Source: Actinomycetota bacterium
GTDB lineage: Bacteria > Actinomycetota > Thermoleophilia > Solirubrobacterales > Solirubrobacteraceae
NCBI GenBank assembly: GCA_005885515.1
Contig: VAWK01000016.1
Location: 55,963 to 119,962, forward strand
Direction: 5' to 3'
DNA: 64,000 bases
Part shown: positions 4,811 through 64,000 of the stretch, piece by piece
Layout of the letters: every line of letters begins with the position of its first letter
Position numbering within the stretch: the first letter of the stretch is position 1
The notes under the pieces: model-generated
Database searches by the model: none
What the model saw: the letters and a program-made list of their open reading frames with translations, nothing else
What the model was told of the DNA's origin: nothing
Position numbers and translations under genes: made by a program

Positions 4811-6351
4811 GCGCTGGCCGCGATGCTGGGCGATCCGCCACGGGCGGTGCCCGCGTCGGTACAGCGAGGACCACAGGTGCCCCGTCGCTGCTCGAGGGCG
4901 ACTTCTGCGTCGTTGGCGCCGGTGCCGGCGGCGCCGTGGTGGCGGCCGAGCTGGCCGAGGGCGGCGCGCGGGTCATCCTGCTCGAGCAGGGGCCGTGGCA
5001 CGATCCGGACGCGTTCACGGCGCGCCCGCCGGAGATGCTCGGCCGGCTCTATCGCGACGGCGGCCAGACGATGACGCTGGGCTTGCCGCCGATACTGCTG
5101 CCGCTGGGTCGCGGTCTGGGGGGCACTACGCTCGTCAACTCTGGCACCTGCTTCCGCACGCCGCCGCACGTGCTGGCGCGCTGGAGGCGCGAGTTCGGGC
5201 TGGACCTCGACGAGGCTTCGCTCGCGCCCTGCTTCGAGCGCGTCGAGCGGGCGCTGTCGGTGGCGACCGTGACGCCCGAGCTGGCGGGCGCCAACGCCGC
5301 GGCGGCCCGGCGCGGCGCCGAGCGGCTGGGGTGGTCGCACGGCTTCCTGCGGCGCAACGCGCGCGGCTGCGTGGGCTCCGGCGTGTGCGTGCTCGGCTGT
5401 CCCACCTCGGCCAAGCAGCACACCGGCATCACCTACATCCCGCGCGCCGCTGCCGCCGGAGCGCAGATCCTCACGGGAGCGGACGTGCAAGAGCTTCTCG
5501 TGCAGGGGGGCGCCGTGCGCGGCGTGCGGGCGCGAATCGGAGGGTCACGCCGCGTGCGCGTGCGGGCCTCGGCGGTGATCCTCGCGTGCGGCACGATCCA
5601 TACCCCGCTGCTGCTGGAGCGAAGCGGGATTCCCGATCCCTCGGGGCAGCGCGGCAGGAACCTGTCCCTGCATCCCGCGACCGCGGCGTTCGCGCTGATG
5701 GACGAGATCGTCGACATGGCGCGCGGCGTTCCGCAGAGCTTCTTCGTGGACGAGTTCGCGCCCGAGGGCATCATGCTCGAGACGATCGCCGGGCCGCCCG
5801 CCTACGCGGCCGCGGCGCTCCCGCTCCAGGGCGCCGCTCACGCGGCGGCCATGGCGAACTACCGTCATCTGGCGCAGATCGGGCTGATGGTCAGCGACGC
5901 CTCGCGCGGCCGGGTACGTGCGCTGGCCGGGCGGCCGCTGATCCACTACCAGCTCGGTGCGGCGGACGTGGCGAAGTTCCGGGCCGGTCTGGCCCGGCTG
6001 CGGCAGCTGTTCGCAGCCGCCGGCGCGCACGATGTGTATCTGCCGCTGCCCCCCGGGGTGGCACCGGAGCGGGCCCGCGCCCGCGATCTCAAGCTGATGG
6101 CGTTCCATCCGCTCGGCACCGCGCGCGCGCACGCGCGCGCGACGCGCGGCGTGACCGACGGCCGTCTCGCGGTGCACGGCGTGCGCGGCCTGTACATCGC
6201 CGACGGCTCGGTGGTGCCGAGCGCGCTGGGAGTGAATCCGCAAATTACGATCATGGCGCTCGCGACCCGGCTGGCCTTCCAGCTGCTCGGCAGGCAGCTC
6301 ACCGCCGTGGCGCCCGACACCGACAAGGAGCAGAGCGCATGTCTTTCCTGA
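4807..6351 (+). CDS. GMC-family FAD oxidoreductase
   Basis: FCVVGAGAGGAVVAAELAEGGARVILLEQG dinucleotide fold; C-terminal HPLGTARAHA...DGSVVPSALGVNPQITIMALATR. Confidence 0.9.
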   Translation: MSAGRDAGRSATGGARVGTARTTGAPSLLEGDFCVVGAGAGGAVVAAELAEGGARVILLEQGPWHDPDAFTARPPEMLGRLYRDGGQTMTLGLPPILLPLGRGLGGTTLVNSGTCFRTPPHVLARWRREFGLDLDEASLAPCFERVERALSVATVTPELAGANAAAARRGAERLGWSHGFLRRNARGCVGSGVCVLGCPTSAKQHTGITYIPRAAAAGAQILTGADVQELLVQGGAVRGVRARIGGSRRVRVRASAVILACGTIHTPLLLERSGIPDPSGQRGRNLSLHPATAAFALMDEIVDMARGVPQSFFVDEFAPEGIMLETIAGPPAYAAAALPLQGAAHAAAMANYRHLAQIGLMVSDASRGRVRALAGRPLIHYQLGAADVAKFRAGLARLRQLFAAAGAHDVYLPLPPGVAPERARARDLKLMAFHPLGTARAHARATRGVTDGRLAVHGVRGLYIADGSVVPSALGVNPQITIMALATRLAFQLLGRQLTAVAPDTDKEQSACLS

Positions 6352-6674
6352 TCGATCCTCCGTGGCTGTACGCGACGGGCCAGATGTACGGCCGCCTGCT
6401 GCCGGAGCGCACGCCTGCCGCCCGCGTGCTCGAGAAGGCGACTGCCGGCGTGTTCCTCGCGACGAGCATCTCGTTGTACCTGGACCGGCCGTGGACGCGG
6501 CCGATATGGAAGGCGTGCCGCGCCCAGGACGGGCGCGACTGGATGCTCAACTCGGGCGTCTTTCGCATCGACCACCGCCGGGCCGGAGCGCGTACGCACG
6601 CCGTCGCGGCGCTGCTGTTTGCGACCTACCCGCTGTGGCTGCGGCTCGGCGAACGCGCCGCACGCAAACGCTAG
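6339..6674 (+). CDS. Hypothetical protein (111 aa) coupled to the GMC oxidoreductase
   Basis: [21 protein letters not shown]...; overlaps the GMC gene end by 13 nt. Confidence 0.7.
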
Positions 6675-8311
6675 AGCGGGATGTTGCCGTGCTTGCGCTT
6701 CGGCCCCGGCTGGCGCTTGCTCTGCAGCGTGTGCAGGGCCAGGACCAGCTTTGGCCGCGTCTCGCTCGGCACGATCACGTCGTCTATGTACCCGCGCTCG
6801 GCGGCCGTGTACGGGTTGGCGAAGCGCGCCTTGTAGTCGGCCATCAGCTTGCCCCGCCGCTCGTCCGGCGTGGGGCTGCCCGTGATGTCGCGCCGGTAGA
6901 TGATGTTGACCGCTCCCTCCGGTCCCATCACCGCGACCTCGGCGGTCGGCCAGGCGAAGTTGAAGTCCGCGAGCATGTGCTTTGAGGCCATCACGTCGTA
7001 GGCACCGCCGTAGGCCTTGCGTGTGATCACCGTCAGCTTCGGCACCGTGGCCTCGGTGAACGCATACAACAGCTTGGCCCCGTGGCGGATGATCCCGCCC
7101 CACTCCTGGCTGGTCCCCGGCAGGAAGCCCGGCACGTCCACGAACGTCAGCAGGGGGATGTTGAACGCGTCGCACGTGCGCACGAAGCGCGCGGCCTTGC
7201 ACGAGGCGTCGATGTCCAGCACGCCCGCCAGCGCGGCCGGCTGATTGCCCACCACGCCGATCGAGAACCCATCGAGGCGAGCGAACCCGCACACGATGTT
7301 CCTCGCGTAGTGCTCGTGCACCTCGAAGAACTCCCCATCGTCCACGATCAGGCGCACCGCATCGCGCATGTCATACGGTTTGTTGGGACTGTCGGGCACC
7401 ACCCGGTCGAGCTCCGGGTCCATCCGCTGCGGGTCATCCGTGGGCTGCACCCGCGGCGCGCTCTGCAGGTTGTTCTGGGGAAGGAAGCTGATCAGGTAGC
7501 GGCAGTCCTCGAGGCATTCGTCCTCGTCCTCGGAGGCAAAGTGAGCGACCCCGGACTTGGTGTTGTGCGACATCGCGCCTCCCAGCTCCTCGAAGCCCAC
7601 CTCCTCGCCGGTCACCGTCTTGATCACGTCGGGGCCGGTGATGAACATGTGCGAGGTCTCCTTGACCATGAACACGAAGTCGGTAATCGCGGGCGAATAC
7701 ACGGCGCCGCCCGCGCACGGCCCCATGACGAGGCTGATCTGGGGGATCACCCCCGAGCACATCACGTTGCGCACGAACACGTCGCCGTAAGCGCCGAGCG
7801 ACACCACGCCCTCCTGGATGCGCGCACCGCCCGAGTCGTTGATGCCGATCACCGGGCAGCCGATCTTGGCCGCGAGGTCCATCAGCTTGCACATCTTCTC
7901 GCCCATCACCTCGCCCAGCGAGCCTCCGAACACGGTGAAGTCCTGACTGAACACGCATACCCGGCGGCCGTCGATGGTGCCGTGTCCGGTGACGACCGCG
8001 TCGCCCCAGGGGCGGTTTTTCTGCATGTCGAAGTCGTACGTGCGGTGGCGTACGAACGTGTCCAGCTCCTGGAAGGAGCCCGGGTCGAGCAGCTTCTCGA
8101 CGCGCTCCCGCGCCGTGTACTTGCCGCGCGCGTGCTGCTTCTCCTCCGCCTCGGGCGCCGGATGCAGCGCCGCCACTCGCAGCTCCTGCAGCTGGGCCAG
8201 CTTCTCCTCGTAGGTCTCCGGCGCCTGCTGGCGCGGCGGGCGCCGGTGCCCACCGCGTGAGCTGGCAAGCAGCGCCGCATCGCTTTGTCGATCGTGCGAG
8301 CTGCTCGCCAT
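6671..8311 (-). CDS. Acyl-CoA (acetyl/propionyl-CoA) carboxylase beta subunit
   Basis: 546 aa carboxyltransferase: [39 protein letters not shown]...GGARIQEGV...[22 protein letters not shown]. Confidence 0.95.
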
Positions 8312-8429
8312 CCACGCCGGATGTTATCCGCGCGTCCGCCCGCTGCCAGACCCGGCCGCCGGCGCGCGAGGGCGGCCTGTCCCCCGCGTCAAGCCCCGGT
8401 GCTCCTTCGGCAGTGGCCTCCGCTGGGCC

Positions 8430-62428: not shown

Positions 62429-62518
62429 GGAGGGGTGGCAGAGCGGTTGAATGCGGCGGTCTCGAAAACCGTTTCAGGGGGTTTTCCTCTGACGAGGGTT
62501 CGAATCCCTCCCCCTCCG
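62429..62518 (+). tRNA. tRNA-Ser (anticodon CGA), CCA not encoded
   Basis: GGAGGGG...CCCCTCC acceptor, loop CTCGAAA with CGA anticodon, long variable arm, T-arm GAGGGTTCGAATCCCTC. Confidence 0.95.
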
Positions 62519-62784
62519 TTTTTTCGGCGAATTTGGCTTGTTTACAGGAGAAATGGACTGGCTGGTTGCTCGGGCTGACCCGGGGCCGGCGCGTCAACGA
62601 ACGTCCACAAACGCCCTCCTGGCAGATTTCGTTCCCCCGCCGTTCCCCCCAAGGGCGTGCTCGCAAGCGCGCCGCCCTGGCCACCGGCCACCTCTCCGAG
62701 TGGGTAGTCGCCGGCCTCCCAAATGAGTCTGACCGAGCCCGGCGTCGGTAGGCGACGCACCAATGCCGCCGCTGTGCCGATGCG

Positions 62785-63268
62785 GTGAGCGAGCCATTCG
62801 CGGATCCGGCGAATCTGCGTGTACACCGCGCCCGCGTGCTTCGCCTGGCCAAGGCAGCGGTATGCGATGACGGCGACAAGCCCGTAATGTGTTCCTTCAA
62901 CATCGAGGCGCTCGCGCTCGAGCACGTGATCACGGTCCGACCGACGTTTGCCGAGAGTCTCGAGACGCTCTTCGCGGGCGCCGCAGCGAGCATCGCGAAG
63001 GAGCTCACGCCTGACCCTGCCGGCGTGAGCAAGCCGATCAAGCTGCCCGAGGGGCGTGACTCGCGACGCCGCGTCTCGCAGGCGCGCGTTCTTTGCCGCG
63101 TGCGTAGCCGAGATCTACAGGCCGCAGCTGCCGTCAGTGCCGCCGTCGCCGAAGTCGAAGATCGCCGACGAGCTGCGCCGTAGCGAGCGCGGCGCTGCCA
63201 CGACCGGCGCCTTCGGCGGAGCGGCGGCGGCGTTGAAGCCCACGCGCTCGTTCGGCGGCGACATCTGA
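62785..63268 (+). pseudogene. N-terminally truncated, frameshifted nucleotidyltransferase-like protein
   Basis: FADPANLRVHRARVLRLAKAAVCDDGDKPVMCSFNIEALALEHVITVRPTFAESLETLFAGAAASIAKELTPDPAGVSKPIKLPEG in the frame of 62785; continues in the frame of 63056 as SRRRAFFAACVAEIYRPQLPSVPPSPKSKIADELRRSERGAATTGAFGGAAAALKPTRSFGGDI*. Confidence 0.55.
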
Positions 63269-63273
63269 TCGCC

Positions 63274-64000
63274 ATGCGTAGACGCAAGGGCACGCCCTGG
63301 TTTCAGGACATCCCGCGCCGCGCGCGCTTTGAGGCGGGAGTACACCCAGCGTATGAGATCAAGAGCCGCTGCAGCGGGCGCTCGACGAGCAGTCTGGTGA
63401 CCTATCAGGTCGTCGTGCCGGTGCCGGAATACGAAGCGCGCAGGGTGACGATCACGCTCTACAACACGTTCACGCCCATCCTCAAGAGCGTGATCGCCGA
63501 CGGCCCAGCCGAGTCGCTTCACCGCTACGGCAGCGGCACGCTGTGCCTGTGGTACCCCGACGACCCACCCGAGAAACGATGGCTTCACGAGGACGGCCTC
63601 CTACAGCTCATCCTCCATGCGCGTGTGCATCTGTTCAAGGAGGCTTGGTGGCGCGAGACCGGCGAGTGGCTGGGGGATCAGGCACCGCATGGCGCCGACT
63701 GGACGATCGTGCCCATCGCCGTAGGCGCGGTTACAGCGATCGGGACGGCCATCGCTGGCGTCGTGACGTGGTTCGTTAGCGGTGTACGGGCCGAGCGCGC
63801 ACGGCTGCAGAAGCTCTACGCCGACGCCTACTCGGCGGTTGTGTCCTACCAGGAGTTTCCTTACATCATTCGACGCAGGCGGACTCCGACTCCGGGCCAC
63901 GAGGAGATCGGCGGGGAGGAACGTCTACGGATCTCAGCTGCCCTCCACGCCGTTCAGGAAGCGCTCAACAACTACCGGGCGCAGATCAGTACGGAATCGA
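63274..64000 (+). CDS. E2-like domain protein with TM segment and cytosolic tail (partial, runs off window)
   Basis: Open frame from ATG 63274: MRRRKGTPWFQDIPRRARFEAGVHPAYEIK...SLHRYGSGTLCLWYPDDPPEKRWLHEDGLLQLILHARVHLFKEAWWRETGEWLGDQAPHG-(TM)TIVPIAVGAVTAIGTAIAGVVTWFV-RAERARLQKLYADAYSAVVSYQEFPYIIRRRRTP...EERLRISAALHAVQEALNNYRAQISTES. Confidence 0.65.
   Translation, partial: MRRRKGTPWFQDIPRRARFEAGVHPAYEIKSRCSGRSTSSLVTYQVVVPVPEYEARRVTITLYNTFTPILKSVIADGPAESLHRYGSGTLCLWYPDDPPEKRWLHEDGLLQLILHARVHLFKEAWWRETGEWLGDQAPHGADWTIVPIAVGAVTAIGTAIAGVVTWFVSGVRAERARLQKLYADAYSAVVSYQEFPYIIRRRRTPTPGHEEIGGEERLRISAALHAVQEALNNYRAQISTES

Follow-up and report, generated by a model that had tools for sequence, protein, structure and literature searches.

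A probable degenerate copy of an E2-only CBASS operon next to tRNA-Ser(CGA) in a Solirubrobacteraceae genome

Introduction

The classification of CBASS is said to be that of Millman et al. 2020, and the type II short form, in which the C terminus of the cyclase is reportedly processed by an E2 of the kind discussed here, that of Yan et al. 2024. By analogy, an intact operon of this form would serve in anti-phage defence. Upon phage infection, conjugation of the cyclase by the E2, by way of the C-terminal tail, would activate the CD-NTase, which would then produce a cyclic nucleotide. This nucleotide would switch on a one-TM effector, causing membrane damage and death of the infected cell.

In type II CBASS with Cap2 (E1-E2) and Cap3 (JAB), according to work on the systems of Bacillus cereus (PMC11153139) and E. 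coli TW11681 (PMC10097602) and a commentary on the latter (PMC10449767), the cysteines of both E2 and E1 are required for defence and the cyclase is conjugated by Cap2 via its C-terminal residue (PMC11153139; PMC10449767). An E2 active-site cysteine is common to that type and to the locus described here, but its effector is a phospholipase or a Nuc-SAVED protein, whereas the triads that we examined have a one-TM effector, with no E1 or JAB gene noticed.

Here we describe a locus within 1.2 kb of a contig end, at the close of a 64,000-nucleotide stretch of DNA, hereafter the window. Very probably it is what is left, in degenerate form, of an E2-only (type II short) CBASS operon, and it would lie just inside one end of a putative integrative element at tRNA-Ser(CGA).

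Results

The host assembly is a 2.69-Mb draft in 79 contigs, 92.4% complete. The contig of interest, C27, finishes with the window (position 64,000, contig position 119962), and the assembly holds no sequence past that point. The proximity of the gene set to tRNA-Ser(CGA), already pointed out in the initial annotation, was borne out by ARAGORN, and the CBASS-like sequence starts 282 bp past the tRNA. The features are as follows.

62429..62518, + strand: intact tRNA-Ser(CGA), integration target (ARAGORN; 3′-half copies downstream of the same tRNA in congeners G244, G288 and G362 and on contig C45 of the same assembly)
62519..62799, no strand assigned: probable integrative-element end, with GATTTCGTTCCCCCGCCGTTCCCCC at 62625-62649 (recurrence of this 25-bp motif; resemblance to G288)
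62800..63063, + strand: first frame of the CD-NTase remnant, from the helical C-terminal half (profile positions 175-262 of 347; PADLOC, profile)
63095..63268, + strand: CD-NTase remnant in a shifted frame, profile positions 286-344, tail KPTRSFGGDI (PADLOC, alignment, profile match at 63095-63259)
63274..63693, + strand: E2 (UBC-like) domain, residues 1-140 (PDLC00867 at 9.8e-32, alignments, AlphaFold2, Foldseek)
63694..63999, + strand: residues 141-242, 1TM effector domain in frame with the E2 and truncated where the contig stops (PDLC00666 at 4e-8, alignment, Kyte-Doolittle)

The first ORF matches an oligonucleotide cyclase over its C-terminal half (PADLOC PDLC00777, E-value 6.7e-16, profile positions 171-264 of 341), and an overlapping ORF in another frame weakly matches the last part of the cyclase (PADLOC, 0.023). 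We built a cyclase profile of 347 positions from the cyclases of 13 relatives, leaving the window rows out. Positions 1-174 of that profile had no match in any of the six frames between 62401 and 63330. Alignment of the relatives places the GS...DAD motif and a later VDL carboxylate in this absent half; accordingly, neither the GS...DxD catalytic motif nor the third carboxylate has a match in those frames, although both are found in intact relatives. The frame shifts between 63063 and 63095, with a net loss of about 24 codons, so that, judging from the profile matches, the two cyclase pieces are separated by a frame-breaking deletion. The C-terminal helical half and the tail are thus retained but divided over two frames. 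The tail itself, KPTRSFGGDI, fits a motif present in 13 of the 15 cyclases listed, R[SA][FYW]G followed by 2 to 8 further variable residues. The nearest solved structures by sequence to the intact cyclase of genome G124 are the CD-NTases 6p8u, 6p82 and 6p8j (E-values 0.0024 to 0.012), which are very distant from it; the window cyclase lacks the catalytic half. Neither a second member of the same cyclase family nor a SMODS cyclase was found in the rest of the 92.4%-complete assembly.

The initial annotation had described the first gene as the C-terminal half of a nucleotidyltransferase, with the second gene starting 5 nt after its stop. The identity is right, but what was taken for a single gene occupies two frames. 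The peptide quoted in support sits in the frame that ends at 63183, and the stop ending at 63268 closes a separate frame, 63056-63268, with the CD-NTase C terminus. The distance from that stop to the ATG at 63274 is therefore correct, but the stop belongs to another frame than the quoted peptide.

The second ORF, which begins at this ATG, codes for an E2 fused to an effector. Its E2 part (residues 7-140; PADLOC PDLC00867, 9.8e-32), in which an E2-like signature had been proposed, also has a UBC-like predicted fold. The AlphaFold2 model was obtained with a pLDDT of 86.7 and a pTM of 0.80. In a Foldseek comparison with the PDB no match reached an E-value of 0.001, and the best value, 0.13, is not significant alone; UBC E2s nevertheless make up the top two matches (probabilities 0.93 and 0.84) and many of those further down. 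The model thus supports a UBC-like fold, short of proof. Searching PDB sequences with the E2 profile returned nothing relevant. Six residues are invariant in our alignment of 18 E2 sequences, H83, C91, W103, G108, H119 and E123, and the window copy has kept them all, the codon of Cys91 being at 63544-63546.

The 1TM effector match covers residues 137-206 of the same ORF (PADLOC PDLC00666, 4e-8). Only the N-terminal half of the effector is present, the contig end truncating it, and the remainder was not found elsewhere in the assembly. This part contains one hydrophobic segment at about residues 145-165 (Kyte-Doolittle peak 2.08) and a YxEFPYxIRRRR motif recognized in the alignment. At the fusion point, the tail of the E2 and the leader of the effector that are present in relatives are missing. 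The E2-TM ORF stays open over at least 242 codons, its codon-position GC contents of 0.65/0.50/0.79 are coding-like, and the terminal branch of the window E2 measures 0.57 against a median of 0.47. By these measures of sequence, the E2-TM part is not visibly decayed.

PADLOC matches for cyclase, E2 and 1TM effector are far above chance level, and intact relatives match the same models over their full length. The family assignment is carried by PADLOC because no Pfam model matches the window parts or the intact relatives. A class-level search detected the protein in 8 of 399 genomes, including that of the host, and in none of the 16 congeneric genomes listed; in several of the class genomes E2 and TM were separate matches. 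Other loci came from plasmids, GTDB contigs and a phylum-level search, and phage records and a viral contig collection yielded no relative. We applied the cyclase, E2 and TM profiles to 27 reference loci and to the window. A CD-NTase/E2/1TM triad is present in 25 of the 27, mostly in Actinomycetota, which speaks for the pairing proposed in the initial annotation. Of the other two, L025 is without the TM effector and L028 without the E2. The effector is a separate gene in every triad found, with E2 and TM in different frames in all 25, and the one-ORF fusion occurs in the window only. As to intact nucleotidyltransferases in homologous loci, the cyclases are full-length in nearly all triads, and the GS...DAD region is present in those that were aligned.

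Three related loci show peculiarities of their own. In Amycolatopsis sp. NBRC 101858 (L037, 6111-6854), which is counted among the 25, the cyclase was detected over profile positions 166-345 only, not in its N-terminal half. Another locus (L025, contig C1 of G122, 6016-8366) has a CD-NTase and an E2 without a TM effector; the ORF beside its E2 looks TIR-like by eye. In L024 (contig C100 of G171), the E2 frame shifts at about position 7978, ahead of the conserved AWWRETGEW, which resumes in another frame.

In the E2 tree, the window sequence belongs to a group of 12, with weak support, whose members come from Actinomycetota, Dormiibacterota, Chloroflexota and a Bacillota bin. Its neighbour there is a copy on a Rhodococcus plasmid (92/73), and the E2 of G157, a member of the same family as the host, is placed elsewhere. 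This placement suggests horizontal spread, with modest supports and G157 as a long branch.

No E1 or JAB gene was noticed in the ORFs listed for several loci, which is the basis on which we speak of an E2-only class. The window has the three components of type II short CBASS (PDLC00777, PDLC00867 and PDLC00666) in the same order, on the same strand and with the same profiles, and its cyclase has the C-terminal R[SA][FYW]G tail; it differs in the frame-broken cyclase lacking its catalytic half, the fusion of E2 and effector, and the cut of the effector by the contig end. The sequence data thus support the view that the locus consists of pieces of an E2-only CBASS operon. We rejected the E1-E2 Cap2 type invoked in the initial annotation, since no E1 was noticed among the ORFs listed for several of the relatives' operons. 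In a type I-like CBASS of genome G386, from the same family as the host, the 1TM effector is related, but the SMODS cyclase is of a different clade and there is no E2. That locus (L028, contig C28, 6031-9816) adjoins an integrase-like ORF and a tRNA-Met.

The 3′ half of the tRNA-Ser recurs as a 65-bp copy on contig C45 of the host assembly, which is not joined to the window contig. The 25-bp motif GATTTCGTTCCCCCGCCGTTCCCCC occurs only twice in the genome, in the window and 3′ of that copy, slightly more than 100 bp beyond the tRNA in one case and beyond the copy in the other. In congeners G244, G288 and G362 the intact tRNA and a partial 3′ copy lie together on one contig, the copy being located ~6.5 kb, 3.9 kb and 6.1 kb downstream, respectively. 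Between the tRNA and about 62650, the window DNA is similar to what follows this tRNA on its 3′ side in G288. On the strength of the tRNA 3′ copies, the recurrence of GATTTCGTTCCCCCGCCGTTCCCCC and the congener arrangement, we infer that the remnant is carried by an integrative element with its insertion site at tRNA-Ser(CGA). The far end of the element and an integrase were not located beside the window; integrase-like genes are present on other contigs of the assembly.

The neighborhoods of these tRNA copies differ in gene content. On C45 (L007, 6890-9272), the copy lies between a PemK/MazF-like toxin gene and a pRiA4b ORF-3-like gene. The 3.9-kb stretch of G288 (L080, contig C167, 1904-6002) has a Fic gene between the intact tRNA and a 71-bp 3′ copy, and an element end similar to that of the window. 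In G362 (L081, contig C164, 486-6738), an AbiEi/AbiEii toxin-antitoxin pair, a NERD protein and a reverse-transcriptase-like ORF sit between the tRNA and a 32-bp 3′ copy. The ORFs seen in the corresponding interval of G244 are ordinary-looking.

Discussion

The window locus is probably an identifiable but dead copy of a known system. Its pathway would not be expected to run, which would amount to a loss of function, because the cyclase has lost its catalytic half and has a broken frame in the remainder, and because E2 and effector are joined in one ORF; with no catalytic cyclase, the pathway could not start in the window. The initial annotation had left the choice between a compact E2-containing CBASS-like system and its remnant. 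The PADLOC matches, the predicted UBC-like fold and the 25 triads bear out the family assignment, and of the two options the remnant is the right one. A compact working two-gene system is ruled out by the absence of the catalytic half, the broken frame of the rest and an E2-TM fusion peculiar to the window.

Several observations count against a remnant. The contig ends inside the effector, placing the rest of the locus outside the assembly, and a 92.4% draft may simply not include an intact cyclase that the organism has. The E2-TM part is not visibly decayed, and the inferred element has its tRNA copy on another contig, with neither far end nor integrase located. The breaks might be metagenome-type assembly errors near a contig end, the operon being intact in the organism. 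The location of the locus at the very end of a contig in a draft of 79 contigs would agree with this, as would the frame break in the E2 of L024. However, base errors poorly explain three separate departures: 174 profile positions are missing, ~24 codons have been lost, and the fusion lacks both the E2 tail and the effector leader. Moreover, the junction does not appear to be random, because the DNA ahead of the breakpoint resembles the element end of G288. We thus regard assembly error as extremely unlikely.

It is also conceivable that the cyclase alone decayed and that the E2-TM fusion was kept as a functional gene with a new role, for example as an E2 anchored in the membrane or as an orphan effector that responds to another cyclase. 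The long open frame with its coding-like composition, the six invariant E2 residues and the ordinary branch length are in keeping with retention. However, long open frames are common at such GC contents, and a recent loss leaves residues intact. The fusion has no counterpart in 25 triads, and the two profiles searched detected no other cyclase in the assembly. In addition, by the positive-inside rule, the single TM segment and the positive residues that follow it would put the E2 on one side of the membrane and the C-terminal part on the other. Retention of the fusion is therefore very unlikely in our view, and we hold it to be highly improbable that it represents a real, selected gene for a CBASS-derived membrane-anchored E2 whose conjugating role was kept or changed after the loss of the cyclase.

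The reading of the locus as a degenerate E2-only CBASS operon would mean that such operons reach, and decay in, this host lineage at the tRNA-Ser(CGA) site, which elsewhere in the genus adjoins other defence-type genes, AbiE, Fic and NERD. The comparison also has a by-product that may be of wider use, a set of 25 cyclase-E2-TM loci and the R[SA][FYW]G tail in 13 of the 15 cyclases listed. This motif and its short variable extension would fit processing of the cyclase tail by the E2, and such a tail is the sign to be expected if E2-only systems process it without an E1.
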